Assembly (NCBI GenBank): GCA_002418705.1
Contig: DIEQ01000058.1
Span: forward strand, 1,637 to 16,100
DNA from: Mageeibacillus sp. UBA5770
GTDB lineage: Bacteria; Bacillota_A; Clostridia; Saccharofermentanales; Saccharofermentanaceae
DNA: 14,464 bases
Reading direction: 5' to 3'
The notes under the pieces were generated by a model. It saw nothing but the letters and a program-made list of their open reading frames with translations, had not been told where the DNA came from and searched no databases. Positions 1 through 13,970 of the stretch are shown in pieces. A program made the translations under genes and the position numbers. Position 1 is the first letter of the stretch, and every line of letters starts with the position of its first letter.

Positions 1-1215
1 GGAGCTCCAGAGAGCCCTTTCAAAACCAGCTCTCTGAATCCAGTGGGAAAGAATCCAACTATTGACTCTCTTCTTGAAACATTTGAGACCGACGACACGG
101 CACTGAAACCGTGTATGGACTATGCTCGAGACTACTATGATTCCCTTTTTCACGTTCAAGAGCAGGCTCTACAGAACATTCAGACAATCGACGAATACCA
201 TGACCAGCATGAATCGGTACTCGCGTATTCCGATTCGGATGACCTGTTCGCAGTTTCAACAGATCTCTCTGGTCCTGGCTCTGGATCTGGAACTTCTGGT
301 GACACGAGCGACCAAAACCTTGCATCTCTTGGTTCAGCGCTGCGGTCGCTACTGAAACCAATGGCTGATTCGGCGGTTTTTCAAACCGAAGTTTCAACGA
401 ATCGCGCTGCGACGAATGGAACTGAGAAAGCTTTAGAAGAGCATATGCTTTCGAATACGGCTTCCACGCAAAGCAAAATGACGAGCATTGTTAAAGGAGT
501 TGCAACAACCGGCGCAGCTGGAGCCGCTGTCACTGGTGTTGCTGCGCTCGGTGCACCAGTCACCGCGGTTGTTGGATTCATCTTCGCATTGCTCAGCATG
601 GTACCGGCTGGAATTGTCTTCATGGCCTACATAGTGACGTATGCCATGGCCGTTACAGTATCTGCATTTGCAATAATCTACGTGCCGTTCTACCTCCTGT
701 TTCAGTTCGGCAAATCGGTAACGACTCCTGCAACGCAGAGCAACCTCGGTCAACAGCATGGTGTCACCGAGTTACTGATGACGTTCACTATCCCAATAAT
801 CGTAACTCTTGAGATGGTCAACTTGGCTGTCTCAAAGGGGATGTTCATGGAGTTCTTCAATCATCTCATCGGAATGCTCGGCATCATCGGCGTAACGCTC
901 GGATCCTCAATAGTCTACAGCGCAATCTCGGTGCCAGTTGATCAAGGTGTGCTGCTCTCGGCGATGGCGGCATCTCTGAAACCGCTTGGAGTAAATATTG
1001 GAATGTCTCTACTTGCGATCTCATTTGCGCAGGTAATACGCGGAAAGCTTCAAGGGAATCAAGCAGTTTCAAAAGGCGATGTTGAGGGAGCTGCTCATAA
1101 AGTTGCGGAGGCGTCTCTTGTACGAGGTCTCATCAACCCAATTGCGTCAAGCGTCGGTAAACACAAATGGGCCACAAGTAAGGCATCGGCTGCTAAGGAC
1201 GTTAATCCACTCTAA
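1..1215 (+). CDS. C-terminal part of a large polytopic membrane protein (possible type IV secretion/conjugation component), 5' partial
   Basis: The reading frame is open from base 1, so the GTG at 43 is probably internal and the true start lies upstream. About 404 residues are visible. The first 155 or so are hydrophilic and include a KPC motif (nt 106-114), a Gly/Ser-rich stretch near nt 270-310 and an ASLGSALRS motif near nt 322-348. They are followed by about five hydrophobic segments at roughly residues 185-212, 214-235, 257-277, 287-310 and 330-347, counted from base 1. The downstream 873-aa protein carries the same landmarks in the same order, including the closing KPL...IG-SL...RG...GN pattern, so the two are paralogues. 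A hydrophilic domain followed by a C-terminal membrane bundle is the topology of VirB6/TraG/DotA-TraY class inner-membrane proteins of type IV secretion systems. I see no diagnostic motif, so that assignment rests on topology and context only. The missing N-terminus is probably about 450 residues, judged from the paralogue. Confidence 0.75.
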   Translation, partial: GAPESPFKTSSLNPVGKNPTIDSLLETFETDDTALKPCMDYARDYYDSLFHVQEQALQNIQTIDEYHDQHESVLAYSDSDDLFAVSTDLSGPGSGSGTSGDTSDQNLASLGSALRSLLKPMADSAVFQTEVSTNRAATNGTEKALEEHMLSNTASTQSKMTSIVKGVATTGAAGAAVTGVAALGAPVTAVVGFIFALLSMVPAGIVFMAYIVTYAMAVTVSAFAIIYVPFYLLFQFGKSVTTPATQSNLGQQHGVTELLMTFTIPIIVTLEMVNLAVSKGMFMEFFNHLIGMLGIIGVTLGSSIVYSAISVPVDQGVLLSAMAASLKPLGVNIGMSLLAISFAQVIRGKLQGNQAVSKGDVEGAAHKVAEASLVRGLINPIASSVGKHKWATSKASAAKDVNPL

Positions 1216-1229
1216 TCAAGGTGAAAATC

Positions 1230-1403
1230 ATGAAAAAATCTGAAACCGACGGAATTAACCTCTTTGATTTCAACACATTCGATCTCGAATTCAGCCCGGT
1301 TTTTGATCGCGAATGCCGAAATCTGTTCTACGTAAAACTGCATTCAAGCCACGCGTCTCTGTCGATTGACGAACAACGAGACCCGGGCGAAAACAAAAAA
1401 TAA
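1230..1403 (+). CDS. small hypothetical protein (57 aa)
   Basis: A 57-codon ORF lies between the two paralogous membrane-protein genes on the same strand, starting 15 nt after the first one stops. I chose the ATG at 1230 over the in-frame GTG at 1221 because an AAGGTG Shine-Dalgarno (1218-1223) sits six bases upstream of it. The GTG would itself be part of that ribosome-binding site. The product is soluble, with a Phe-rich centre (residues 11-25) and one cysteine (residue 29), and has no signal peptide or membrane segment. I do not recognise the family. Its position suggests co-expression with the flanking membrane proteins, but a role cannot be read from the sequence. The good ribosome-binding site and tight spacing are the main reasons for calling it real. 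Confidence 0.55.
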   Translation: MKKSETDGINLFDFNTFDLEFSPVFDRECRNLFYVKLHSSHASLSIDEQRDPGENKK

Positions 1404-1449
1404 TTTGAATCTCGGTAACTGAAAAAAACAACAATCTCGGTGAAATGTG

Positions 1450-4071
1450 ATGGATTCAATAATTTCTGACAGCTCCGGTGGATTCACTCTGCTCGCATAC
1501 GACACAACCCACGCAACTATTCTCGTGAATGGCTTAGCAATCCTTCACGGAATCCTGCCAGGACTGCTCACGATCGGAATCCTCTACTTCCTCATTGCAT
1601 CATTTATTCGGACATCTACTGGAGATCGGCAGTTTTTCATGTGGATTATGCAGGCGACGGTGGCAACTCTGTGCCTAATGATCATGTTCAATGGAATCTA
1701 CCTGCCAGGCTTCGGAACTGTTCTGAAACTCCGAGCAAATTCTCCGAAAAAACTCTCAAACATTTACGTCATCAAACATCCTGGTGCAATTCCGAACACC
1801 CAGGTCTTAGCCGGAATTTATGCTTTCGGGCCGTTCGAAACAATGGCCATGAATGACGCGGATGAAGAATTTGCGGCCGCTGCCGGTGGAAACAACGCGA
1901 AACTCGTCACTGGAACTGGCGGTGCACAGATGCCAATATATCGGCTCAGCCTCGGCTCCGGAGGCATGCTCAACTCTTCATGGGCTGCTCTGAATGGTAG
2001 ACTTGCAGAGGCTCCGGTTTACAGCTCAATCGCGATGTATCTCGTGAACTCGTTTACGAGCATAATGTACGCGACATTCAATACGGCTGAGGTGCTCTAT
2101 GTCGACCGATTCAATAGTTTCAACAATGAGAATGCCGTAAAGAGTGGAGAGAAAAAGGTTGGTCTCGTTGCTCCGGCTAAAGAGAGTTTTTATGCTGCTC
2201 TGCTCGATGGCGTTGAATCGGTGGTTCAAAAAACTTCGACTCTTTTTGAATTCAACAATGGGTCTTCTGAAAATACAGCCTATGCCGCAACGTCTGGGAC
2301 ATCTTCTACAATCCGTCTCGAACCGCTTGGTGAGGCCTCGGTATCTGTCAACGCTTTGGATGTTACCGAAATGATCACTCATCCTATCGATCTTCCGGAT
2401 CTATCCTACGATGAATTCAGTCAGAGACTCGTTGGAAGTTCCAGTAGTGAAGGGATTGGAATTGAGAGTTCCAGTGAGTTTGCGGAGCGCTACCATGCGA
2501 ACGGTGGATCTGGTGATCCGCTCCGAAAAGGGGCGATGTTCGGTATCGGTGCTGCTTCGTGTCTTACTAACGTACAAGCTCCGCTGATTGGAAAATCCGC
2601 CGCGATCTTCCATCCAGCCTACTTTCAACCTTCGGACAGGATTACCGGAAGACTGACAAATGAAAGTGGTTCGTGTGCCGTTCCCCTTTTCGGAGGCCTC
2701 TGCCTTGACGACTTCATCACGGCTGTTACTGGCTCGAACGGCAACTTCGAATTTCAAGACGCTCTCTCAGCACTTGGGAACATGGCTTCCCAGGAGTGGA
2801 ACTTTGATGTGCCAGAATGGACCCTTGAAACTCCATCGACAATCTCTCTGCAAAGCACATTGTCAGCTCTTGAGTCGGTTGATGTGGAACAATTTCCGGA
2901 AATGAAGCCGTGCGTTGAACTTGGAAAGGACCTTGTCGCGCTTGATCTAACCAAACTCGAAATGAATGAGGATTTTATCGCGGAAACCGATTCGAGGTTT
3001 GCTGACCGAGATGCACATGTGGAGATGTATAACGCAATCGCCGGCATTGAGAATAAATCGCGCGATGACGATGATGGATTCTATGCGATCTCAATCGATA
3101 CGCCAGGCAGCTTGGATGGGTCTGGAGGAAATATGAGTGGTGGTGCTGACTCTAATATGGCCTCACTCGGATCTGCGATGAGGTCAATCGCCTCAGTCCT
3201 TACGACGAACTACAACCCGATGCAACTCGAACAGGATACTTCACATACGCCAGTTGAAGAAAAATCGAAAACTACAGGCATCGTCCAGTCGGTCTTAGAT
3301 TTCGGTCAAACAGTCAATAACTGGACCGTGGTCGGACTTGGTAAGCGAGCCGCCGAATTTGGAGCTGGAGTTGGCAAGGCTGCCTGGGACGGCGGTCTTA
3401 GTGGAATGAAGGACCATGTCACTGAAGGCATCAAAGACGCTGCGTTTTCAGGCCTCGAAATGATCATGACTCCGTTCTCGCTGATCCCGATCCTAGCAAT
3501 CTTGTTGCTTCATACCATTGCCTACTACACGACCATTTTCACCGCTGGGATATTTGTCGTATTGTTTCTGGTCTGGATTGGCCTTGCATGTATCAAGCTC
3601 TTCATGGGCACGTCGGATGATGACACGAGGCCGCTTGGAATTGCGATCTTCCCGATCGGTTCTCTGTTTGCGTTTGTCGCTCTCATTGGGGTCACGCTTG
3701 CAATCTTTCCGTTCATCAGCGCAGACTGCATGCTCTTCATGAAAATGGCGCGGACCAGCCTTGCAACTGCGACCACTGGCATCCTTTCAGGTTTCGTGGC
3801 CGGAGTTTCTGGTAGTCAGGGAATGGTCGAGACTGGAATGGACCTTTTTACAATCGCGATGAAACCGCTCGCCGAGATTATTGGAATTTCGCTGATTCCG
3901 GGAATCCTCATGAGCCTGCTGCGTGGAAATCCATATCATCCACAATCAACAACATCTGGGGCATCTGCAGTGCTGCGGTCTGCCGGCAATCCGACTGGTG
4001 GAGCGTCCGGCTTGATGTCAACGGTGACAAGGCTCTCTGGAAAATCCAAAACGCCGTCTGGCAGTGCATGA
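1450..4071 (+). CDS. large polytopic membrane protein (873 aa), paralogue of the upstream gene; possible type IV secretion/conjugation component
   Basis: I start it at the ATG at 1450, which follows a GGTGA ribosome-binding element (1439-1443); an in-frame GTG lies just ahead at 1447. Two membrane segments are near the N-terminus (about residues 26-51 and 64-86). A long, mostly hydrophilic region of some 580 residues follows, with several cysteines. About four or five segments come at the C-terminus (about 677-700, 703-725, 730-757 and 800-826). The region from the KPC motif (about residue 486) to the end corresponds to the partial protein at the left edge: KPC, a DDGFYAIS block, a GSGGNMSGG linker, ASLGSAMRS, the membrane bundle and an RGNP terminus. 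The layout matches the broad class of VirB6/TraG/DotA-TraY inner-membrane proteins of type IV secretion, but no family signature is certain. Another large transporter-like or surface protein remains possible. I am confident of the coding call and much less sure of the function. Confidence 0.85.
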   Translation: MDSIISDSSGGFTLLAYDTTHATILVNGLAILHGILPGLLTIGILYFLIASFIRTSTGDRQFFMWIMQATVATLCLMIMFNGIYLPGFGTVLKLRANSPKKLSNIYVIKHPGAIPNTQVLAGIYAFGPFETMAMNDADEEFAAAAGGNNAKLVTGTGGAQMPIYRLSLGSGGMLNSSWAALNGRLAEAPVYSSIAMYLVNSFTSIMYATFNTAEVLYVDRFNSFNNENAVKSGEKKVGLVAPAKESFYAALLDGVESVVQKTSTLFEFNNGSSENTAYAATSGTSSTIRLEPLGEASVSVNALDVTEMITHPIDLPDLSYDEFSQRLVGSSSSEGIGIESSSEFAERYHANGGSGDPLRKGAMFGIGAASCLTNVQAPLIGKSAAIFHPAYFQPSDRITGRLTNESGSCAVPLFGGLCLDDFITAVTGSNGNFEFQDALSALGNMASQEWNFDVPEWTLETPSTISLQSTLSALESVDVEQFPEMKPCVELGKDLVALDLTKLEMNEDFIAETDSRFADRDAHVEMYNAIAGIENKSRDDDDGFYAISIDTPGSLDGSGGNMSGGADSNMASLGSAMRSIASVLTTNYNPMQLEQDTSHTPVEEKSKTTGIVQSVLDFGQTVNNWTVVGLGKRAAEFGAGVGKAAWDGGLSGMKDHVTEGIKDAAFSGLEMIMTPFSLIPILAILLLHTIAYYTTIFTAGIFVVLFLVWIGLACIKLFMGTSDDDTRPLGIAIFPIGSLFAFVALIGVTLAIFPFISADCMLFMKMARTSLATATTGILSGFVAGVSGSQGMVETGMDLFTIAMKPLAEIIGISLIPGILMSLLRGNPYHPQSTTSGASAVLRSAGNPTGGASGLMSTVTRLSGKSKTPSGSA

Positions 4072-4090
4072 GTATAAAGGAAATGGAGAT

Positions 4091-4120
4091 GACGGCTATG
4101 GTCAGCTGATTATAGCCGTC
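4091..4120 (+). repeat. 9-bp perfect inverted repeat (hairpin) between genes
   Basis: GACGGCTAT (4091-4099) pairs exactly with ATAGCCGTC (4112-4120) across a 12-nt loop that contains the palindrome CAGCTG. It begins 19 bases after the stop of the 873-aa gene. No U-run follows the right arm, so it is not a standard intrinsic terminator. An RNA stem that limits read-through or protects the upstream transcript, or a protein-binding site, would each fit. A nine-codon frame (ATG at 4084, TGA ending at 4110) overlaps the left arm but has little support. Confidence 0.5.
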
Positions 4121-4172
4121 GATCATAGCGGATTGGAAAACAGCTGTGACCTCGCATGCTATGGAGATATGT

Positions 4173-4322
4173 ATGAACGCACCAGCAATGCCCAAAATCA
4201 TCGAGAAAACCATTCAACTTGAAGATCTTGAAATGGATCCTGAGTTACTCGCCGAATTCATCGAAAGCGATGAACTGGCAAATTCAGAAAAGGGAACTCT
4301 ATCGGACCTGAACCAGTGCTGA
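4173..4322 (+). CDS. small acidic hypothetical protein (49 aa)
   Basis: This short ORF opens with ATG at 4173, six bases after a GGAG ribosome-binding site (4163-4166). It encodes a strongly acidic 49-residue peptide rich in Glu, Asp and Leu (residues 10-45), with no signal peptide or membrane segment. Its TGA (4320-4322) overlaps the GTG start at 4316 of the next gene within the string GTGCTGA, a classic arrangement for translational coupling. I do not recognise the family. An acidic peptide encoded directly before a protein with a very basic tail could form a charge-complementary pair, but that is only inference. Confidence 0.5.
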   Translation: MNAPAMPKIIEKTIQLEDLEMDPELLAEFIESDELANSEKGTLSDLNQC

Positions 4323-4747
4323 AACCGATGCAGGTACAGTCTGCTTCAGAGGAGGTAAACACTCCGGTTTTTCCGATCACAGCGGCTCTTCAGCAGAAGC
4401 TCGGTAGAGTAAAGGTGATCAGAGAATTGAGCGTAAGGATGGGAACCAATCTTGAAACGGCTCGACTTCTTCTGGAGCTTCCAACTGATATTGTAATGGA
4501 TTTATCATCTGCATTACGCGGGAAGCACGCAACTGTGACGGACCTCTGTGTCATTCTTTCAATGTTCTATGGAATCAGGATCAACGACACGCAATTCACT
4601 GCGATGCTCGTACAGCTAGACCCGGGAGAGAGACTCCGTCGAAAAAGAGAAAAGCGCAAACGTCGAAAACAGGCGCTGAAAATCAAGAAAAAAGGTGCTG
4701 CGGAAGTGGAGGCAGAAATTGAGATGGAAGGACCGTCACTCAATTGA
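4316..4747 (+). CDS. hypothetical protein with a highly basic C-terminal tail (143 aa)
   Basis: The GTG at 4316 overlaps the stop of the preceding 49-codon ORF by seven bases. No clear Shine-Dalgarno stands before it, which suits initiation by termination-reinitiation. An in-frame ATG at 4328 is the alternative start. Residues 25-100 look like a compact alpha-helical domain (alternating Leu/Ile/Val and charged residues). Residues 106-127 are almost all Arg and Lys, and the end (129-143) is acidic. The basic stretch suggests binding to nucleic acid or to membrane phospholipid, but no known helix-turn-helix or ribbon-helix-helix is convincing. It sits between the membrane-protein genes and an HU-type gene. 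I cannot name the family. Confidence 0.65.
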   Translation: MLKPMQVQSASEEVNTPVFPITAALQQKLGRVKVIRELSVRMGTNLETARLLLELPTDIVMDLSSALRGKHATVTDLCVILSMFYGIRINDTQFTAMLVQLDPGERLRRKREKRKRRKQALKIKKKGAAEVEAEIEMEGPSLN

Positions 4748-4805: not shown

Positions 4806-4860
4806 TCTCGAAATTGCAGTTTAGGCTACTACATTGTAAACCATAATTCGGAGTTTGAAG

Positions 4861-5172
4861 ATGAACAAATCAGATTTGATTAAGGCTTTCGTCGATGAAA
4901 CCAAGGTTTCAGACAAGGTAGGTAGCAGCATTATCGAAACTATCTTGGACAAAATGACTGAATCTCTGATTCAAGGCGAAAGTATAGAATTGCGTGGCTT
5001 TGGCAGCTTTACAATCAAAAAATATGAAGGCTATGAAGGCCGAAATCCTAAAACTGGAGTCGTTACAATCGTCAAACCGAAAAAGCTCCCGTTTTTCAAG
5101 CCGGGTAAGGCTCTTCGCGAATCGGTCAATTCGAATCGGAGAACTGTTTCGAAAGCTAAAAACAAGAAATAA
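4861..5172 (+). CDS. HU/IHF-family DNA-binding protein with a basic C-terminal tail (103 aa)
   Basis: This is a nucleoid-associated, DNA-bending protein of the HU/IHF family, which acts as a dimer in the minor groove. The helical N-terminal half opens with MNKSDLIKAF. It is followed by the signature GFGSF (residues 46-50), the beta-arm GRNPKTG (60-66) containing the Pro63 that intercalates in DNA, and the closing PFFKPGKALRESVN (77-90). I chose the ATG at 4861 because GGAG (4850-4853) is seven bases upstream; an in-frame TTG at 4855 is less likely. HU proteins usually end near residue 90. Here 13 further residues (91-103), including six Lys or Arg, form a short basic tail. HU versus IHF subtype cannot be fixed from sequence alone. 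It has its own candidate promoter and is the last plus-strand gene. Accessory HU/IHF-like proteins are common on plasmids and integrative elements, which would suit the neighbouring genes. Confidence 0.93.
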   Translation: MNKSDLIKAFVDETKVSDKVGSSIIETILDKMTESLIQGESIELRGFGSFTIKKYEGYEGRNPKTGVVTIVKPKKLPFFKPGKALRESVNSNRRTVSKAKNKK

Positions 5173-5302: not shown

Positions 5303-5806
5303 CTATTGTATCGTGGTATTCAAATCAGCCATTATTCGGCTCTCATTTGGCAATATTGCATCAGAACAAACGGAGTTGCTTTTAAATTTGTTTTCCTTAC
5401 ACATCTCGATGAGTTCGAAGGACTGTGCGGGAGTAAAAGAAAAACTCATCTTAGGCCCCCTTGATGGATAAGGATTTTCGTTATGCTGGTTTTTAGTCTC
5501 CTCAACCTTAGCTGTTGCTGGGATTTTCCCGCTATGTACTGAATCAATTACGCATTTATTTCGTTCTGAAGGACGAAGGTCTGGTGACATGCATGAAGGA
5601 TAGACTTTCATGCACATCTCCATTTCTTTTTGATTAAAATCAAACTGTTCACATGCAATTCTTACACCTAACTTATTTATGTTATCATCCATTTCTTGAA
5701 ATGCATTGCCGGCTAATGATAGCGATGGATAGAATGTTAATAAAACAAATAATAGCAAAAAATTAAATTTATTTTCTGAAGCAAAGGCTATTTGTTGTTT
5801 TAACAT
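5303..5806 (-). CDS. small secreted protein with six ordered cysteines (167 aa)
   Basis: The start is the ATG at 5804-5806, preceded by a strong AAGGAG six bases upstream; the longer frame to 5842 has no comparable site. Residues 1-32 form a Sec signal peptide with a hydrophobic core and likely cleavage after LSLA (residue 32). The mature part has six cysteines at about residues 52, 65, 72, 85, 136 and 147. The first four have symmetric spacing, Cx12C-x6-Cx12C, which suggests a disulfide-locked helical hairpin in the periplasm. The last two form a Cx10C pair near the C-terminus. I do not recognise the family. It is the last gene of the minus-strand series, 150 bases after the two-TM protein gene, so it may belong to the same envelope system. 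The DNA is more A/T-rich than the FlgT-like genes upstream. Confidence 0.75.
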   Translation of the reverse strand: MLKQQIAFASENKFNFLLLFVLLTFYPSLSLAGNAFQEMDDNINKLGVRIACEQFDFNQKEMEMCMKVYPSCMSPDLRPSERNKCVIDSVHSGKIPATAKVEETKNQHNENPYPSRGPKMSFSFTPAQSFELIEMCKENKFKSNSVCSDAILPNESRIMADLNTTIQ

Positions 5807-5845
5807 TTTTATCTCCTTAGGTGGAAAAGATAAATTATTCAATAA

Positions 5846-5864
5846 CTCAACTCAGAAAGTTGAG
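5846..5864 (-). repeat. 7-bp hairpin between two minus-strand genes
   Basis: CTCAACT (5846-5852) pairs with AGTTGAG (5858-5864) around a five-base loop. It lies in the gap between the two-TM protein gene and the six-cysteine protein gene. On the minus strand only a weak T-rich stretch follows, so it could be a poor terminator or attenuator that lowers expression of the last gene. The evidence is structural only. Confidence 0.3.
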
Positions 5865-5956
5865 ATACTAAAAATCATATTTCAAGAGCTGGAACCATTC
5901 ATGTGTATGCATTCATGTGTGATACCTTTGAGAACCTTTCCTCTGCAAAATGGAGA

Positions 5957-6826
5957 CTAAATGGGATCAGTTGGTTCTTCTTTGCTCTCATCCGCGGTAG
6001 CAACCTGACGCCATTCTTTTTGATAAATCGCTTCATGAATGTTTCGAAGGTTATTCTCTATTTTTGCGAATATGAGATAAAGGGCGAGAAACATGAAGAT
6101 TCCAAAAGATACTCCAGCCGCCATGAGATTTTGCAGCGCGTCAACTTTAGCCGAACGAACTCTATTGAGCTCGGCGTTCCATTCATTCTCGACTCGGTCC
6201 TTTTCGCTTTTTTCGAATTGCAGCTTTTCGTCCTGAATTGTTCTCCAGGTATCAGCGTGAAATTCAAGAATAGGTAAGAAAATGGTTTTTACTTTGCCCT
6301 CTTTTTTGAGTGCAATTAACGATTCATCTTCCAGTGCCTTACAGATAAATGGTTTTGCCGCCCTGACCCAGGCTTCCCCCAAAAGTGGGGAATCGGCTAT
6401 CCTTTCAAGCCTTGATCTGAATTCGTTTACCCGTTGCAGGTTTTGAGTATCATCTATATTTTCAATTACCGCGCCGATTTTTTTGCCGAAGTCGGCTGAA
6501 CAGCGATACAATGCCGTCGCATCTTCTAAATACAATAATGACGTTTGCTGACTGTCTTGCTGAGCGGGTATTGTTCCCTGATTATTTTCCTGCTTTTCTC
6601 GATCAATAAGAAATTGTTTTAATCTGTCCAGGTTTATCTCCTTTACTGGATCTTTTTCCGGAGCTTTTTGAGCGGGAGTTGGTTGCTTTGGCGTTTGTGA
6701 AAGCTGATAGATGGCGTTACCGCAAAGAATCAGAATGGAGAGTAGAGCAATTCCCATAATGAACAAAACGGTACCCTTGAAAATTTTAAGAAAGAAAACC
6801 TCTAAGTTCTGAGTCGAATGTGCCAT
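5957..6826 (-). CDS. two-TM membrane protein with a large periplasmic helical domain (289 aa)
   Basis: The ATG at 6824-6826 follows AAGGGG four bases upstream. A membrane segment at about residues 15-40 is followed by a Pro/Lys-rich linker (44-61). A mostly helical domain (62-232) then holds two cysteines, C109 and C162, that could form a disulfide. A charged, probably coiled stretch (about 195-232) leads to a second membrane segment (about 233-254) and a cytoplasmic tail of 35 residues. Both ends are therefore predicted in the cytoplasm with about 190 residues in the periplasm. I do not recognise the family. Its place immediately after the CsgG/peptidoglycan-binding lipoprotein makes an inner-membrane partner for the periplasmic and outer-membrane proteins of this cluster a reasonable guess. 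Confidence 0.8.
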   Translation of the reverse strand: MAHSTQNLEVFFLKIFKGTVLFIMGIALLSILILCGNAIYQLSQTPKQPTPAQKAPEKDPVKEINLDRLKQFLIDREKQENNQGTIPAQQDSQQTSLLYLEDATALYRCSADFGKKIGAVIENIDDTQNLQRVNEFRSRLERIADSPLLGEAWVRAAKPFICKALEDESLIALKKEGKVKTIFLPILEFHADTWRTIQDEKLQFEKSEKDRVENEWNAELNRVRSAKVDALQNLMAAGVSFGIFMFLALYLIFAKIENNLRNIHEAIYQKEWRQVATADESKEEPTDPI

Positions 6827-6857
6827 ATTTCCCCTTAAGACATAAAAATTGTGTTTA

Positions 6858-6873
6858 CAGGATGTTCATCCTG
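6858..6873 (-). promoter_or_regulatory. 16-bp palindrome upstream of the two-TM protein gene
   Basis: CAGGATG and CATCCTG flank a two-base centre, giving a perfect 16-bp palindrome 32 bases before the ATG at 6826. It could be an operator. It could also be the stem of a weak terminator for the lipoprotein gene, since a run of five T follows about nine bases later on the minus strand. The loop would be tight for a terminator. Confidence 0.35.
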
Positions 6874-6943
6874 CGTCACGATGGAGAGAGGCAAGGAATT
6901 GATTCGATCTTGCCATCGACGTGTTGTAATGATGGAAGAAAGG

Positions 6944-8002
6944 CTATAAATCCATAGGTGAGACCTTTTCGGCTGAAGGAGTGGTCTGCTTTGTTTCTTC
7001 AGGAGTTGCGTTACTTGTAGGAGGAACAGAGGGAACAATTTCTGCCTGTGGAGTTGTTGCAGCCTGCGATTGAGCCCCAGACTTTGCCGATTGTTCTTTG
7101 TTTTGCTGCAGCAATGTGTTGATAGTTGCCTTATCGGCCTGACCGGTTTCTGGAAGATTGTTCTCTTTCTGAAATTTCTTTATGGCTGCAATTGTACCCT
7201 TGCCCAGCTTACCGTCTACCGGCCCAGGTTCATAACCCAAGTCAAGGAGTTGTTGTTGTACTTGGGCGATTATTTTTCGGGAACCTTTCTTTTTGCCACC
7301 TTTGGCTTTGGGAGTGTTATCCAGAGTTACATCTCTTTCGGGTGGGGATATTATTTCGGTGGATGCTGTTCCACTTGATTGAAGGCTTTCGAACGCGGGT
7401 GTTATGATATTTTCTGCAAATTCACTGAACGTTGCGCCACCTTGGCCGAATACACCTCCTTTCTTCCATTCACCGCTTCCCGCCCAGGATATTTCACTTG
7501 TACCAGTATCAATTAGCATGACGTCAAGTGAGGCTCCGGCACCTTTCGAGATGAAGCCAACATCCAATTTTTCTGATTTTAAGCGTGATACAAGTAAAAA
7601 ATCACAGCTCAATATCCGCCCCAGAGTCATAACATGTCGTTTGTCCATTACTCCGGTAGCTTCGTAGCTTGACAGGAGCTGTTCAAAATTCGTCAGACTG
7701 TTTGTTTGATTCAACTGATAGACTACATCGGCGATGTCCGTGATAATGGCTGAAGGAACTTTTGCTCGCAAGGCCGGCGCCAAACGTTTGTTCACTTCAG
7801 TCCTCATTGCCATAACAGAGTCCGGCGCCAAGGACGTCTGCATCTTTGCCGGTAAAATTGCAATTCTTTTATTGTTGAATATTGAGGCATTGGTGACTTG
7901 AATAACACTTTGTGAACCGGTCACGCTCATGCATCCCTGGCTGATCAGCATTACGGACAACATCATCATTGACCAGAAGAAAATGTAAGGTTTTGTTCGC
8001 AT
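6944..8002 (-). CDS. CsgG/FlgO-like lipoprotein with a C-terminal peptidoglycan-binding domain (352 aa)
   Basis: The start at 8002 follows GGAGACGAG. A hydrophobic leader ends at Cys24 (LISQGC), a plausible but imperfect lipobox, so lipid anchoring is likely rather than certain. Residues 44-208 resemble the CsgG/FlgO/LpoB-type fold: KRIAILPA strand, an AMRTEVNKRLAPALR helix, LGRILSCDFLLVSRL, and a strand pair with a DTGTSEI turn. Residues 243-299 form a PG_binding_1 domain, with QQQLLDLGY, PGPVDGKLGKGT, AIKKFQKENNLPETG and a closing DKATINTLLQ helix. A lysine-rich linker (232-243) joins the two, and the last 50 residues are a Gln/Thr/Pro-rich tail. CsgG-family proteins act at the outer membrane as secretion pores or flagellar-ring accessories, and PG_binding_1 domains hold proteins to the cell wall. 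The combination points to an envelope-anchoring part of the cluster. Confidence 0.85.
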   Translation of the reverse strand: MRTKPYIFFWSMMMLSVMLISQGCMSVTGSQSVIQVTNASIFNNKRIAILPAKMQTSLAPDSVMAMRTEVNKRLAPALRAKVPSAIITDIADVVYQLNQTNSLTNFEQLLSSYEATGVMDKRHVMTLGRILSCDFLLVSRLKSEKLDVGFISKGAGASLDVMLIDTGTSEISWAGSGEWKKGGVFGQGGATFSEFAENIITPAFESLQSSGTASTEIISPPERDVTLDNTPKAKGGKKKGSRKIIAQVQQQLLDLGYEPGPVDGKLGKGTIAAIKKFQKENNLPETGQADKATINTLLQQNKEQSAKSGAQSQAATTPQAEIVPSVPPTSNATPEETKQTTPSAEKVSPMDL

Positions 8003-8153
8003 CTCGTCTCCGTAGGTTGAAGTGTTGAATATTGTTTCCTGTCAGAAAGTGTTATTCATTGTATTTCGACCTTTTTTAGGTGATCCGTCCTTCCAGAATT
8101 TGCTAGAGTAGTTTGATAGACATCAATTTTTTCAGACATGAGTGGTCTTGATC

Positions 8154-9506
8154 TCAATAGGCCGAAGTATCTACTTTCATGGATTCTAACTGTTTGCTGT
8201 CTTTGCCCGGTTGCGTGCCGGTAGAGGCACCCCCAGTCTGTTGGTTTTCCATGGCTGCCGCGGCAGCCTTGCTCACCTGGGCTGAGGACGGCGTCCAGGC
8301 GATAACCGTTCCCGCCACGTCTTGACCTGTTTCCGGATGCTTGGCATTCCATTCTTTGATTACACGCAAGCCGCTCAGTTTAACCTTGACGTTTTTGCCG
8401 GTGATTTTCTTTTGATATTCTCGCACAACTTCCGTGCCAAAGGTCATGTCGGAAAATTCACGAGACAATTCTTCGCTCAACTCGCTCTCACGCAAGGTGA
8501 GTCCTTCCTGAATGAAATTGACAATGGCGGCTCGAGCCCGGTTGGCAGCGATCTGATTGGCATCTTGAATCGCGGCTAGTTCACGGCCTGGGGCCGCTCT
8601 CCTTGGCTGTGCCTGGCCATACGCCATCACTGCATACTGGCCCTTTTCATCGACCACTATTTTCGCCCCTACGGAACCGATCAACACAGCTTCATCCGTA
8701 GGCATGTGCTCCGCCAGTGGTTTGCCCGGCGTCACAGCCGGAATGCTGTACTCATCGTTCATCAGGCTCAACGCCAACCGGTTAAGCTTTGGTGTCCAGA
8801 TAACGCCGACAAGCACCTGGTATTCATCATTAGTCATTTTCCCTTCCGTAGAATAAATCGGGGTGGCACCGATCAGGGTTTTCATGGCAATTCCCTGAAT
8901 CTGCCGCTTGAACCGGGATTCGGCTATCTGCTTCAGTTCTTCCGGAGTCTTGCCGGCATATTTTTCCGGATCATATTCCGGGTCGAGTTTTTGGAGGGCG
9001 GCGTTAAGGCTGCTTTCTGTCAGCGCCAGGGATTTCTTGCCTATGCGGTCCAGCGTATCCGCCACTTCATTGAGCTCCTGGATCTTATGGATATCACCAT
9101 CCTGCCAGGTCGCATTTTCCAAGACCTCCAGGCTGCGTTTTGTGTCGGTAGATTCCACCAAGCTACGGATAATCTTTGCTTTAGCATCTAATTCCGCCCG
9201 TTCAAAGGCTGCCACCCGGGAATCGATCCAGCCGGGTTGACCAAGCCGCACGGCAACGGAAACCGTCGCAGATGCGATTATTTTTCCATCCGCGTGGATA
9301 ACGCCGTTTTCTGTCTCGTCCGAAGGCCAACCTTGGGTCTCGACAAAAGCCCGCCATTTTTCATTCAAGTTGGCAATGGCGACGATTTCCTTCTTCTGAG
9401 CGGCCTCTTCGCTGGATTTGAGGAGCAGGTCAGGATTATCCTCGCTATGGGCGTACCCCGTTGCCAGGAAAATGGTTGCCAACAGTATGGTTGCGATGCG
9501 TTTCAT
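8154..9506 (-). CDS. secreted FlgP/LPP20-like protein with two related halves (450 aa)
   Basis: The start at 9506 follows AAGGAGAG. The gene begins 15 bases after the FlgT-like gene ends, so the two are surely co-transcribed. Residues 1-21 are a Sec signal peptide without a lipobox cysteine. Two halves show the same plan: an Ala-rich amphipathic helix typical of LPP20/FlgP domains (98-118 with AFERAELDAKA; 309-334 with AIQDANQIAANRARA), then about 90-140 residues, then a strand ending VGVIWTP (233-239) or GTVIAWTP (399-406). The C-terminal 40 residues are Gln/Gly/Ser-rich and probably disordered. FlgP forms part of the flagellar outer-membrane disk in Vibrio and Campylobacter, but no flagellar gene is present here. 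I infer a structural periplasmic or outer-membrane-associated component. The similarity is read by eye and is distant. Confidence 0.82.
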   Translation of the reverse strand: MKRIATILLATIFLATGYAHSEDNPDLLLKSSEEAAQKKEIVAIANLNEKWRAFVETQGWPSDETENGVIHADGKIIASATVSVAVRLGQPGWIDSRVAAFERAELDAKAKIIRSLVESTDTKRSLEVLENATWQDGDIHKIQELNEVADTLDRIGKKSLALTESSLNAALQKLDPEYDPEKYAGKTPEELKQIAESRFKRQIQGIAMKTLIGATPIYSTEGKMTNDEYQVLVGVIWTPKLNRLALSLMNDEYSIPAVTPGKPLAEHMPTDEAVLIGSVGAKIVVDEKGQYAVMAYGQAQPRRAAPGRELAAIQDANQIAANRARAAIVNFIQEGLTLRESELSEELSREFSDMTFGTEVVREYQKKITGKNVKVKLSGLRVIKEWNAKHPETGQDVAGTVIAWTPSSAQVSKAAAAAMENQQTGGASTGTQPGKDSKQLESMKVDTSAY

Positions 9507-9521
9507 GTATTCTCTCTCCTT

Positions 9522-10658
9522 TTATTGTTCAGTAGTGCCTTTCCAGGAGAACCTGATGCGGCCTCCTTGAACGGTGGTAACCGTGACGAGCCAGTTCTCG
9601 TCATCGAAGGCTGCCCGGATTGCTTCGGCGAGTTCCGCGCCTTCACCCTTGAAAGTGACATTCTTGATAAATTGTCCTTCTGCGTATTTGGCCGGTGTAG
9701 TGGCAGTTACCCTATGAAGCCCCTGGATGATGGCATCGGCTCTGGGCACAGCATCTCCCGGCAGGGAATCGATCATTACCGTCTGCTCCATGCCGTTATT
9801 CCATGTCTGGTTCCAGACCTCCGCCAATTTCCGAACCAGATTCTCCGAAACCGCAGGGGCAACGGCTCCGATGCACTTCTCTTTTGCCTGGTCGAGAGAA
9901 AACCCGGCATCCGGCCCGTGTGACTGTTTAAATTCAGCAACAGTCGTTCCCCGTTCCTTGTCGCTGATCTTGTAGGATACGTGACAATGTACCGTCGTGG
10001 TTCCCAATGCGGGCATCTCTTTCGTCTGCACAACCTGAAAAAGTTCTATCAAATATTGCGGATTCACTTCGCTGGAGATCATGATGCCGTTGTGGATGAG
10101 ATTGTCGCGGAAAAAACGCAGGGTTCGGTCATCTTGATTTTCACGGGACGTTCCGTCTAGGTCTTCCGCAAAGTTTAAGACGACAACCGGTTTCCCTATC
10201 CGAGTCCAGAAGTATCCAGCATCCTGTTTGGCTACGGCTTCCTGTTCGGAGTCGACAGCGATCTTGGCCGTGACGTAATATTGCCCTTTCTCCTGCCATT
10301 CCCTGACAATCTCCACCAGCCTGGCATGCCCCTTGGTCTGTGTAGCTCCAGCGGCATTGTGCCGACTCTGCTGCCGGGTGGCCGTGTCGGCTTTTTCTGC
10401 GGTGATCATGGTATCTTCCCTTGTTCGAAGGGAATCGCTTCGCTCACCACTCACTGTTGCCCCGGTCACCTGTAACAACGCCAAGTCAAGTGCATTGCGC
10501 AGAGCGCGCTGTCGAAGTAATTCAACATTGTTGATTTCCGAATCGGATTGCGGGGAGGCTACTCCTGTTTGCGTGGTTTCCGTTGCCGCGTGACCATTTA
10601 TACAAGTCAATAGGAAGAAAACGATGAGAAAAAAACAGAGAGAAAAAGTATTCCGCAT
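9522..10658 (-). CDS. FlgT N-terminal-domain-like secreted protein (378 aa)
   Basis: The ATG at 10656-10658 has AAAGGT eight bases upstream. A Sec signal peptide spans residues 1-24, with likely cleavage after NGHA. Residues 44-136 match the plan of the FlgT N-terminal domain: a helix RQRALRNALDLALLQVTGATVSG, a long polar insert, then the strand pair GHARLVEIVREWQEKGQYYVTAKIAV. Residues 155-290 start with a beta strand KPVVVLNFAED and may be a CsgG/FlgT-middle-like alpha/beta domain. Residues 295-373 form a third alpha/beta unit (FIKNVTFKGEGAELAEAIRAAF). FlgT is a periplasmic H-ring protein of the Vibrio flagellar motor. The family assignment is by eye and the true role may differ, because the neighbours are not motility genes. 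It leads a two-gene unit with the FlgP-like gene. Confidence 0.83.
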   Translation of the reverse strand: MRNTFSLCFFLIVFFLLTCINGHAATETTQTGVASPQSDSEINNVELLRQRALRNALDLALLQVTGATVSGERSDSLRTREDTMITAEKADTATRQQSRHNAAGATQTKGHARLVEIVREWQEKGQYYVTAKIAVDSEQEAVAKQDAGYFWTRIGKPVVVLNFAEDLDGTSRENQDDRTLRFFRDNLIHNGIMISSEVNPQYLIELFQVVQTKEMPALGTTTVHCHVSYKISDKERGTTVAEFKQSHGPDAGFSLDQAKEKCIGAVAPAVSENLVRKLAEVWNQTWNNGMEQTVMIDSLPGDAVPRADAIIQGLHRVTATTPAKYAEGQFIKNVTFKGEGAELAEAIRAAFDDENWLVTVTTVQGGRIRFSWKGTTEQ

Positions 10659-11058
10659 AGTTGTCGACCTTTTTGGACAAAGAAACGAAGATGGTTAGTA
10701 GGGTTTAAAGAGATGTCATCACTGCTGTTTAAATAGAACAGAGTTTTAAATAATCCAATTTTGCGAAATTTAACTGTCAACAAAATTGGGTGAAAAAAGG
10801 TTCATCCGGTTTAGGTGTACCCTGGTGTAACTCCTAATTGATATTTCAATCAAATGCCAAATTTATGGTTTAAAAGAGTTAGTAGTTTTATCATCAAAGA
10901 CGAGAACCCCTCCTTTTTGTGCCCCCATTGCTACTGTAATATTTTCATAACATATAAAATTTATCCAAACAATTCATTGGATTCCCGATTGTTTTAACTG
11001 TGAAAGAGGGCTTTTACCTCCAAGATTTCCTGAATGTTTATCACAAAATCGGTAACCA
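10659..11058. other. 400-bp A/T-rich intergenic region, no gene seen
   Basis: This gap separates the end of the beta-propeller gene from the start of the FlgT-like gene, both on the minus strand, and should hold the promoter of the FlgT/FlgP-like pair. I found no ORF with a credible ribosome-binding site. It contains the inverted repeat described separately at 10755-10789 and a weaker 7-bp pair (AAACAAT 10967-10973 with ATTGTTT 10988-10994) that could belong to the end of the propeller transcript. A short direct repeat, GGTGTACC/GGTGTAAC, lies near 10815-10830. No promoter could be fixed with confidence. Confidence 0.5.
10755..10789 (-). repeat. 9-bp inverted repeat upstream of the FlgT-like gene
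   Basis: CCAATTTTG (10755-10763) and CAAAATTGG (10781-10789) are perfect inverted copies with a 17-base spacer, about 100 bases before the FlgT-like start. The centre-to-centre distance of 26 bases is between two and three helical turns. It may be a regulator-binding site or a leader RNA stem. The arms are A/T-rich, so chance is possible. Confidence 0.35.
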
Positions 11059-12501
11059 CTATTCAAGTAGAAGAAAAATTCCAAAAGGGATAGTCTTTGG
11101 CGGAGGAGGTGGAGGTGGTGGAGTATTATTAACTTTGAATGCCCATATTGGTCGATCATCAAAATTAGGTCTAGCCGAAAAATATAGAGTATCGTTTATT
11201 GTTGTAAAACCGCTTGGATAACTACTCATGCCAAGGTCTCCGGGGAAAATATCCTTAACAAGTGTTGTGCCGGACGTAGTTCCATCACTTTGCCACAATT
11301 CTTCCCCATGAATTCCATCATCCATGGCAAAGAATATTTTGCTTTGAAAAGCAAATAGTTTTGGGAAGAACATTGGTATGTATCCGGATGGAAATTTTTT
11401 TACTATGCCTGTTCCAGAAGGTGTCCCGTCAGTTTTCCATAATTCTAGTCCATCAGAATTGCTGCTTGCACGCAAGAAGTACATATGGCTATTAATTTTA
11501 GCTAACGAACCTATTTGAAGATTTGATATGTTTATAGGAGTCGTGCCATTGACCGTTCCGTCTGTTTTCCACAAACCCCACTCCTGTTGCTTGGATGCTA
11601 CAAAAATATATAAATTATTTCCAAATTTTTCAAAATCATTAACAAAATTAAATTCGTTAGATATCAACGGAAAGGTACCTTGCGCTGTTCCATCACTTCT
11701 CCATAACGTATTAGTACTAATTTTATTAGTATACCTATTGAAAAAGAAAAATATATTATTATCTCCTCCTAGCGGGTAGTAGGCTTCTATCATAATGTGT
11801 GCATAAGTGTAATCACCAAAAATATCTTTTATTCTATGAGTACCTGCTTTTGTTCCATCGCTCTTCCATAATCCCAAGTCATGAATTCCGTCTTCGCCAA
11901 GAAAAAAAAGAGTAGCGCCTGTACTTGTTAATCGCCAAATTTGGTTCAACCCTGAGTATCCTGGTTGTGGAGGAGAAATTGCGGGTAAAGTTCCTGTCTT
12001 CGTACCGTCTGTTTTCATTAATACAGCGTCGTCTCTATAATACGTAGGATAATATACTGTATTGCCAATTATTCCATAATGGTAATCCCCATTTCTATTT
12101 ATATAGAAATCACTATCTATGTTGCCATCAAGCATAATTGTTCCGTTTTCGGTTCCATCCGTTTTCCATAAATTCGGTGACATTGTGCCATCATGACTTA
12201 AGGCATGAAAGAAAAGATTATTATTTACAGTAAACTTATCACTTCTAGAAGCAAAGTACGTATTAGAAGACTCTTGACAGGAATCCTTAATTAATTTCAG
12301 AGCAGCTGTTTGCGGATCATAACTATAAATATCGAAACAATCACCTTCTGTAAATAAGATCAGTTTGTCGTTTGTCGTGCCATAGTCTAAGTCATTTTTA
12401 AAGTCATCATTAATTACAATGCAAGGTTCACTCCCAAAAATAACATTTGTCTGGAAAAGCATAATGAATAATATGGTGAATAAAGATAAATTCTTCGCCA
12501 T
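11059..12501 (-). CDS. secreted ELWxxDGT-repeat beta-propeller-like protein (480 aa)
   Basis: I chose the ATG at 12499-12501, eight bases after GAGG; an in-frame GTG at 12510 is part of that G-rich site. Residues 1-23 form a Sec signal peptide ending near VIFGS. Seven copies of the [E/G/N]LW-[K/R/Q]-[T/S]-DGT--GT repeat begin at about residues 111, 161, 211, 266, 310, 354 and 402, spaced 44-55 residues. An eighth degenerate copy with IWAF lies near 452. Such repeats build beta-propeller blades in exported proteins of many environmental bacteria; their role is usually binding or adhesion and is poorly known. The protein ends with eight consecutive prolines and a hydrophobic 12-residue tail (KTIPFGIFLLLE), as if a C-terminal domain or anchor were short or lost. 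The DNA is A/T-rich compared with the FlgT-like genes. It may be a surface cargo of the neighbouring system. Confidence 0.88.
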   Translation of the reverse strand: MAKNLSLFTILFIMLFQTNVIFGSEPCIVINDDFKNDLDYGTTNDKLILFTEGDCFDIYSYDPQTAALKLIKDSCQESSNTYFASRSDKFTVNNNLFFHALSHDGTMSPNLWKTDGTENGTIMLDGNIDSDFYINRNGDYHYGIIGNTVYYPTYYRDDAVLMKTDGTKTGTLPAISPPQPGYSGLNQIWRLTSTGATLFFLGEDGIHDLGLWKSDGTKAGTHRIKDIFGDYTYAHIMIEAYYPLGGDNNIFFFFNRYTNKISTNTLWRSDGTAQGTFPLISNEFNFVNDFEKFGNNLYIFVASKQQEWGLWKTDGTVNGTTPINISNLQIGSLAKINSHMYFLRASSNSDGLELWKTDGTPSGTGIVKKFPSGYIPMFFPKLFAFQSKIFFAMDDGIHGEELWQSDGTTSGTTLVKDIFPGDLGMSSYPSGFTTINDTLYFSARPNFDDRPIWAFKVNNTPPPPPPPPKTIPFGIFLLLE

Positions 12502-12584
12502 TAACCCCACCTCACTTGTTAGAGATTAGTATCAATTTAGTCCACTATACTATTGCCCCATAGTCAAGATAAATTTTTAAATAA

Positions 12585-12612
12585 TTATGGACAATTAATT
12601 GTTTCTCCATAA
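12585..12612 (-). repeat. inverted repeat with nested palindrome upstream of the beta-propeller gene
   Basis: TTATGGA (12585-12591) pairs with TCCATAA (12606-12612). Between them lies the perfect 12-bp palindrome ACAATTAATTGT (12591-12602, sharing one base with the left arm). The site is 84 bases before the propeller start and 150 bases after the CsgG-family gene ends. It could be an operator for the propeller gene or an imperfect terminator for the gene before it. No U-run makes the terminator reading convincing. Confidence 0.35.
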
Positions 12613-12764
12613 CCAAGAAATTATGAGCACCAGATACAGAATTCAAAGACCGCTTTCTTTATTCCAGTGCCATATCCATATCGGGATAAAGAAATGATTT
12701 TCAATGCATAAATGATTTATAAATTTAGATACAAAAATGTTTACTAAAACCGGAAAAGATATAT

Positions 12765-13970
12765 TTATTCTATAACTAGTTCTTTAAAGCTTGCAAAAAA
12801 ATTTCCTCCATGACCGTTGGTATAACTTACAGCAGCAATAATATGTTTACCGTCACCTTTAATATCTCGAAAATTTATTGATGAGATTCTCGGAATGCCA
12901 GCAGGAAAATCAGGAGGATTAATCTTGAGTTCTGCTGATTTAAAAAAATATTGATTCCCAAGTTCATCAACGAGATAAGTGTTTTTTTCTGGATCATCTA
13001 AAGCAAAGCTTACGGCTTCATTTGTCCTATTAATATATCTTAATTTTAATTCGATATCTGAACCATTCCGCCTTAAAGACACCACTTCAATTCGAAACCA
13101 ATCATTCTCAAAAACGGCCTGTTGTTGCGATTTATTGGCATTTTTGGGCGATTGTGCAGAAGCATCCTCGGGCGAAACGGTTGAAGGTTCACTGTCAATC
13201 TGTGTTTCCAACAGTTGCGCGATGAGCGGCGTCTTTGGCAAAGCGACCTCGGAGGCGCTGATGGCATCGCCGGTGCCGATGTCAACCAATCGGCCATTAA
13301 GGTTGATTTCGTTGCCCATATCGTTGATTGTACCCAGCAGCATGCCTTCCGCTCCTAGCAACTCACCAATCTTTTTGGCCGATTCCATGTTCACCAGCCC
13401 GGAGTAGCCAAGCTTCTGCTCCTTGAGGACTCGCTCTAACTGGTCCCGTTCCACCACTTGCATCCCTCTGTTGGTCAAAGAGGTGACCATTTTTTCCTGC
13501 AGGTTTTTAGTCAACTGGTTGAAGGACTGGTTATAACTGAATTGGCCGACCACTATTCGCTTGACCTGCTTGCGCAGCGGGTAGGCCAGATCGCCGGACT
13601 GTGGAACCCCTGTTTTTTCCACTACTCTACAGATTGACATTTTCTCCCGCACCTTAATGACTTCCACTTTGGCGACTGGCACTTCCTCGTTACCAAAGAT
13701 TTCGCTGCCTACTTTGAGCGGAGCGCCTGGGCGGACAATCTCAAACCTGTTGCCCTCTACCACGCCATCCACCTGACCAAGGGTCAGATATACCTCAGTA
13801 TCCGAACCTTTAATCACCTCGCCCTTCAGCGAAGAGGTTGAAAGCTGCTCTATCATTTTCTCCAACTGCCTATTCAGGTCGTCAGCCGCCAGAACTGGTG
13901 AGCAACATACAATCACCCCGAGTACTAAGGCGCGACAAATAACGCGTATCAGCTTATTGATGCCTTTCAT
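12765..13970 (-). CDS. CsgG-family secreted protein with FlgT-C-like and Ig-like domains (401 aa)
   Basis: The ATG at 13968-13970 follows GAGGAGAG closely. A Sec signal peptide ends at about Ala28 (SPVLA), with cysteines at 22-23 but no proper lipobox. Residues 47-131 form a small beta domain like FlgT-C, with the telling phrase GQVDGVVEGNRFEIV and a closing PQSGDLAYP. Residues 137-250 are a CsgG/FlgO-type domain: RIVVGQFSYN, an LTKNLQEKMVTSLTNRG helix, QVVERDQLERVLKEQ, a GELLGAEGMLLGTI strand and LVDIGTGD. After a low-complexity linker (255-285) comes a beta-rich, Ig-like domain (286-401) related by eye to TRF2/DUF4352-type folds. CsgG proteins are outer-membrane pores or ring accessories. 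Base composition changes sharply near the Ig-like domain (33% G+C at 12841-12900 against 60% at 13201-13260), suggesting a fused or exchanged C-terminus. It is the first gene of the minus-strand series. Confidence 0.88.
   Translation of the reverse strand: MKGINKLIRVICRALVLGVIVCCSPVLAADDLNRQLEKMIEQLSTSSLKGEVIKGSDTEVYLTLGQVDGVVEGNRFEIVRPGAPLKVGSEIFGNEEVPVAKVEVIKVREKMSICRVVEKTGVPQSGDLAYPLRKQVKRIVVGQFSYNQSFNQLTKNLQEKMVTSLTNRGMQVVERDQLERVLKEQKLGYSGLVNMESAKKIGELLGAEGMLLGTINDMGNEINLNGRLVDIGTGDAISASEVALPKTPLIAQLLETQIDSEPSTVSPEDASAQSPKNANKSQQQAVFENDWFRIEVVSLRRNGSDIELKLRYINRTNEAVSFALDDPEKNTYLVDELGNQYFFKSAELKINPPDFPAGIPRISSINFRDIKGDGKHIIAAVSYTNGHGGNFFASFKELVIE

Follow-up and report, generated by a model that had tools for sequence, protein, structure and literature searches.

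Are the building blocks of flagellar rings confined to flagella? We took up this question for a row of genes on contig DIEQ01000058.1 of Mageeibacillus sp. UBA5770, in a stretch of 14,464 nucleotides referred to here, at its full length, as the window. Its minus strand carries seven consecutive open reading frames (ORFs) for exported or membrane-anchored proteins, of 179, 289, 352, 450, 378, 483 and 401 amino acids (aa), which the original prediction had interpreted as one envelope-spanning assembly made of flagellar-ring and pore modules. The row itself was borne out. By eye, a signal-like start can be seen in six of the seven ORFs, the one in 8154-9506 being brief and below the hydrophobicity cut used, and 5957-6826 has two hydrophobic segments. 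When all 11 main ORFs of the window were searched against Pfam or NCBIfam, nine of them against both, no flagellar family was recognised among them, in line with the prediction of a locus without flagellar genes. What recurs in relatives is a smaller set, an FlgT-like gene next to a DUF6844 gene with CsgG-type and peptidoglycan-binding genes close by. This rare, patchy gene set seems to reuse flagellar-ring and outer-membrane-pore parts for a structure anchored to the cell wall and unconnected with swimming.

An FlgT-like gene and a DUF6844 gene side by side

The ORF at 9522-10658 (minus strand) encodes an FlgT-like secreted protein of 378 aa, with an FlgT_N-like domain (residues ~26-135), a middle domain of CsgG/TolB fold (~139-288) and a C-terminal alpha/beta domain (~290-375). 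An FlgT-N domain had been predicted in the row; the window protein itself stays below the Pfam cut-off for FlgT_N (E=0.0053), but 11 of 18 members of its family match that model at E<=1 (best 3.8e-5), and structural comparison points the same way. Queried with an AlphaFold model of the protein (mean predicted local distance difference test 80.5, predicted template-modelling (TM) score 0.54), Foldseek placed first an LPHT-ring chain, 8z5n_0 (E=6.4e-8), which we take to be FlgT, and second FlgT 3w1e (E=1.1e-6). Residues 133-289 of the model are covered by matches of CsgG, PelC, TolB and LptE type, and the fold of this part alone is not specific to FlgT. Like FlgT of Vibrio-type polar flagella (3w1e, 8z5n), the window protein is exported and has an N-domain followed by a CsgG/TolB-fold middle; unlike FlgT, it has no recognised flagellar family nearby, and the TM-scores between the two are low.

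The neighbouring ORF, 8154-9506 (minus strand, secreted protein of 450 aa), had been labelled LPP20/FlgP, which proved to be a mislabel. Of 27 members of its family, 25 match DUF6844 (PF20891) at E<=1 (best 4.4e-8), and the 21 Pfam families listed for the set do not include LPP20; in the test for LPP20/FlgP, its profile gave matches of only nine columns to the FlgT_N-like domain (E=0.005-0.008). The window protein alone scores 20 bits against the DUF6844 model, below the cut-off of 27 bits. Searched against the PDB, the profile of the 27 relatives found one structure at E<=10, 4qvr (FTT_1539c), at E=1.3e-20, with homology over 366 of 455 profile positions. Judged by these profile matches, 8154-9506, which has a conserved C-terminal tail, is a DUF6844 protein related to Francisella FTT_1539c, a hypothetical protein that one report lists among those recognised by serum from mice after immunisation with outer-membrane vesicles (PMC10963506). 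A search of the open literature found no paper on DUF6844, nor any on CsgG combined with FlgT.

DUF6844 proteins have an aromatic last residue: it is Tyr in 38 of 39 matches, the exception (P0008) being short at 350 aa, and F, Y or W in all 10 readable members of the broader family (loci L004, L020-L027 and L041). Aromatic ends occur in 31 of 196 locus ORFs, a crude background that includes spurious and related ORFs. An internal duplication of DUF6844 was rejected (hhalign E=0.12).

The FlgT-like and DUF6844 genes recur as a pair. A scan of genome contigs yielded three close loci, from metagenome-assembled genomes (MAGs) of a Desulfobulbus (L001), a member of the Chromatiales (L002) and a member of the Granulosicoccaceae (L003), and the FlgT-like and DUF6844 genes are adjacent in the window and in all three (4/4). 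In L001, L002 and L003, respectively, blastp identity to the window is 45, 37 and 31% for the FlgT-like protein and 56, 43 and 36% for DUF6844. In a comparison confined to relatives of the L001 genome, a tRNA synthetase on the L001 contig (isoleucyl by eye) reaches 75% identity with the enzymes of 18 of them, which agrees with the binning of the contig. Beyond these loci, 8 of 16 FlgT-like matches have a longest contig of the same size as that of a DUF6844 match among the matches listed (14051, 25993, 7234, 21507, 18422, 13458, 18144 and 8237 bases), which is a coincidence of sizes and no direct reading of the contigs. Of the remaining eight, six come from contigs shorter than 2.6 kb (among them a fragment of the very gene in the window), and the last two, on contigs of 37510 and 6399 bases, have no DUF6844 partner among the matches listed. 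Both lists hold the best ~8000 candidates sharing most words, and the adjacent L001 pair is missing from the FlgT-like one.

Several other genes were seen at these loci. In L003 (1515-3680) a caspase-type domain (Peptidase_C14, 1.3e-34) is fused to an FlgT-like part that is 31% identical to the window's, and a known defence system was rejected, a PADLOC scan of nine proteins having matched this fusion alone; L020, too, has caspase-type genes, some kilobases away from its DUF6844 gene. Two further genes (~300 and 185 aa) stand near the DUF6844 cluster in both L001 (3329-4785) and L002 (7204-8669), 29% and 45% identical between the loci, and the L001 pair matches no Pfam family. A degenerate Lon-protease-like domain occurs in L001 (10189-11145), in L002 (8684-9685) and in an L001 paralog (9559-10182), where hhalign against a small Lon set gave E-values of 4e-4 to 7e-4 but a probability of no more than 27-34%, with five decoys above 0.06; a Pfam Lon_C search did not list these proteins. 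The first two have one membrane segment each and keep, by eye, the Ser and Lys positions that the paralog has lost, and the Lon-like proteins end in a tail LES...Y that resembles the DUF6844 tail.

CsgG-type and wall-binding proteins around the pair

A CsgG/FlgO domain, also predicted for the row, is clear in the secreted protein of 401 aa at 12765-13970 (minus strand), with Pfam CsgG (E=5e-11) and FlgO (E=1.2e-8) both over cut-off. The domain occupies approximately residues 135-248 and is followed by a C-terminal domain. Its CsgG match spans profile positions 30-100 of 210, and a CsgG-type pore is therefore not indicated; likeness to the curli pore is confined to this domain and to a CsgG-like predicted fold in the lipoprotein described below, whereas no curli partner family was matched within the window. 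The predicted FlgT-C domain was not confirmed: FlgT_C appears below threshold in the L001 relative (E=0.018) and is not listed for the window protein in the Pfam scan. That relative, 49% identical, directly follows the FlgT-like/DUF6844 pair, and is the only one among the three close loci. L002 and L003 have in its place a lipoprotein with CsgG and PG_binding_1 domains, on the opposite strand in L002.

A comparable protein in the window is the probable lipoprotein of 352 aa at 6944-8002 (minus strand), so classed because Cys24 is near-invariant in its family; a lipobox pattern finds no match there. It consists of a domain of predicted PelC/CsgG/FlgT-middle fold (~43-211), a PG_binding_1 domain (~240-304; Pfam E=1.9e-16) and a tail of low model confidence. 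PelC, the lipoprotein of Pel polysaccharide export, is the best fold match for the first domain, with CsgG, LpoB and the FlgT middle also alike, and LpoB is sub-threshold in Pfam. The window protein differs from PelC by its added PG_binding_1, and no Pel family was matched within the window. In part of the family (alignment A3) a variable linker leads to a conserved SPMDL-like C-terminus, and several members are without PG_binding_1.

With 6944-8002, proposed as the peptidoglycan anchor, the three close loci share only the PG-binding domain (blastp), and 0 of 27 other matches of its family lie on a contig equal in size to a DUF6844 contig (6 of the 27 contigs exceed 5 kb). The recurring feature near DUF6844 is a wall-binding domain and not a single gene, since the proteins that carry it differ in build. 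A PG_binding_1 gene stands close to DUF6844 in the window and all three relatives (4/4). Genomes G001, G002 and G003 have 3, 3 and 7 places with this domain, of which 1, 2 and 1 lie within ~4 kb of DUF6844, which is far from chance if placement is assumed to be uniform.

CsgG-type neighbours extend to the wider DUF6844 family. We surveyed 13 loci (the window, L001-L004 and L020-L027, with L040 and L041 outside the survey) and in 12 of them DUF6844 has a gene of CsgG/LpoB/PelC type no more than two genes away, none being recognised in L020. The call was made by fold for the window lipoprotein, by blastp to Pfam-scanned neighbours for L023, L025, L026 and L027, by the record's LpoB annotation plus a match just under cut-off for L004, and by a match under cut-off plus blastp to L022 for L021. 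Since L024-L026 are close relatives (DUF6844 75-82% identical), the count by lineage is 10/11. In L022 the neighbour matches FlgT_M over cut-off (1.8e-10). Four of the 13 loci carry the FlgT-like gene; the broader loci L004 and L020-L027 have no blastp match to it, and their DUF6844 tails end differently from the window type.

A proposed wall-anchored collar and its alternatives

The idea of a non-flagellar assembly survives in reduced form: an FlgT-like/CsgG-type neighbourhood recurs without ties to flagellar genes and with a PG-binding gene close by, but it is not the seven-gene unit first envisaged. Neither of the two findings that the prediction named as refuting it was made, the search for flagellar genes at this locus being confined to the window. 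With a probability of roughly 0.45, we propose that a periplasmic collar unrelated to flagella is built from a core of FlgT-like protein, DUF6844, CsgG/FlgO protein and a PG-binding lipoprotein of the kind of 6944-8002. Anchored in the outer membrane and the wall, it is best read as a version, with FlgT, of an uncharacterised DUF6844-CsgG/LpoB module. The lipoprotein would be lodged in the outer membrane, where an oligomeric ring formed by its PelC/CsgG-like domain would be tied to the cell wall by its PG_binding_1 arm. In the docking order that we infer, the TolB/CsgG-type domains of the FlgT-like and CsgG/FlgO proteins would let these two stack on it as additional rings, with DUF6844 docking through its conserved C-terminal aromatic tail. 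The finished collar might act as a brace or a gate for passage across the outer membrane.

The main rival, which we judge somewhat unlikely, is control of peptidoglycan synthesis or remodelling, with CsgG/LpoB-fold proteins activating a wall synthase in the manner of LpoB and with DUF6844 and the FlgT-like protein as co-regulators. Pfam LpoB is over cut-off at 12765-13970 (1.3e-5; 25.6 bits against 22.3), where CsgG and FlgO score higher, and the lipoprotein has an LpoB fold match. LpoB also lies beside DUF6844 in L024 (3.6e-42) and is annotated next to it on the Azospirillum plasmid NZ_CP039640.1, a lytic transglycosylase lies two genes from DUF6844 in L020, and the association of PG_binding_1 with DUF6844 would suit wall control as well. 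In contrast to LpoB, however, the window proteins carry extra domains, and no synthase family was matched within the window.

It is also conceivable, though clearly unlikely, that the FlgT-like and DUF6844 genes alone form a unit and that the other envelope genes of the row, unrelated to it, stand there by chance. The guanine-plus-cytosine (GC) fraction runs from 0.35 to 0.53 along the seven genes (0.52-0.53 in the FlgT-like and DUF6844 genes) and the intergenic gaps from 15 to 400 bp, which argues against a single uniform seven-gene operon. For three of the seven genes (11059-12510, 5957-6826 and 5303-5842), blastp at 1e-4 found no counterpart in any of the loci fetched, and it matched the lipoprotein through its PG-binding domain only. 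The seven genes do not form one unit, and we left those three out of the core. Against mere chance, CsgG-type and PG-binding genes recur beside FlgT-like/DUF6844 in different lineages.

That the genes are accessory flagellar ring genes of H/T-ring type displaced from a flagellar operon appears very unlikely. The FlgT-like fold with FlgT_N and the FlgO domain would fit such an origin, as would FlgI, found in 6 of 11 DUF6844 genomes and in two of the three with an FlgT-like gene. Yet FlgI and DUF6844 lie on different contigs in all six, flagellin N domains occur in just one of the three close genomes, and the remaining five of the 11 gave no FlgI. Several of the genomes are drafts, which makes the absence soft; three of the five have DUF6844 on contigs of 0.5-2.1 Mb. 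LPP20 genes occur in 4 of the 11 genomes, away from the DUF6844 locus, and none in G001-G003. The module is not visibly linked to flagella, but just one genome without FlgI, itself a draft MAG, was seen to carry the FlgT-like gene. Finally, that the core belongs to, or is accessory to, a secretion or conjugation system of the plus-strand genes 43-4747 is highly improbable, as the DotA/TraY label given by eye to 43-4071 is backed by no Pfam, NCBIfam, PDB or plasmid match, and these genes are opposite in strand, with no homologue found in the fetched loci L001-L003.

If the collar is real, FlgT-type ring proteins are not solely flagellar and form part of a wider CsgG/PelC/LpoB/FlgT toolkit for other wall-anchored structures, which would bear on how flagellar rings were recruited; DUF6844, with an immunoreactive Francisella member of solved structure, would gain a testable context. 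A bolder version, which we consider unlikely, is that a dedicated non-flagellar machine in distant lineages reuses flagellar-ring modules, that a C-terminal aromatic tail common to DUF6844 and a membrane-tethered Lon-like protein acts as their docking or processing signal, and that proteases (the L003 caspase fusion and the Lon-like domain in L001 and L002) control the collar.

Family distribution and the rest of the window

In counts that include each group's starting genome, the Pfam model of DUF6844 matched 2 of the 395 genomes examined from the phylum to which G001 belongs (one over cut-off), and profile A1 matched 8 of the 369 from the class that includes G003 (strongly in G003 alone). 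By order, the family was found in 1 of 257 genomes for G001 (G001 itself), 2 of 195 for G002 and 2 of 48 for G003. The distribution is patchy, and the genes may have spread by horizontal transfer. Carriage by known plasmids or viral contigs was rejected. The plasmid search gave one DUF6844 match (Azospirillum, 22% identity) and none for the FlgT-like protein, the CsgG/FlgO protein or an 874-aa protein (one at E=6 for the last when E<=10 was allowed), and viral contigs gave no match to DUF6844 profile A1, lipoprotein alignment A3 or the 874-aa protein.

The three genes outside the core are all on the minus strand. The protein of 483 aa at 11059-12510 (GC 0.36) matches the ELWxxDGT-repeat model TIGR04534 (5.3e-53, six stretches; repeat family D1). 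Eight consecutive prolines and a short hydrophobic stub make up its C-terminal end, perhaps a surface-anchoring signal; the gene is possibly an insertion between core genes. Its role as a surface propeller, proposed for 11059-12501, finds no support in this GC-poor gene without counterparts in the fetched loci, and the same lack of blastp matches leaves the supposed inner-membrane partner, the 289-aa protein at 5957-6826 (GC 0.42; no Pfam or NCBIfam match), without backing. The last, 5303-5842 (GC 0.35), encodes a secreted protein of 179 aa. Searches of the window for RNA genes found no tRNA and no Rfam family, and promoter-like and terminator-like sites were not in excess over shuffled sequences. 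On the plus strand, 43-1215 and 1447-4071 encode two paralogous multi-helix membrane proteins (27% identity over part of their length), and 4855-5172 encodes an IHF/HU-type DNA-binding protein whose top match is IHF beta (1.3e-25, below that model's cut-off).

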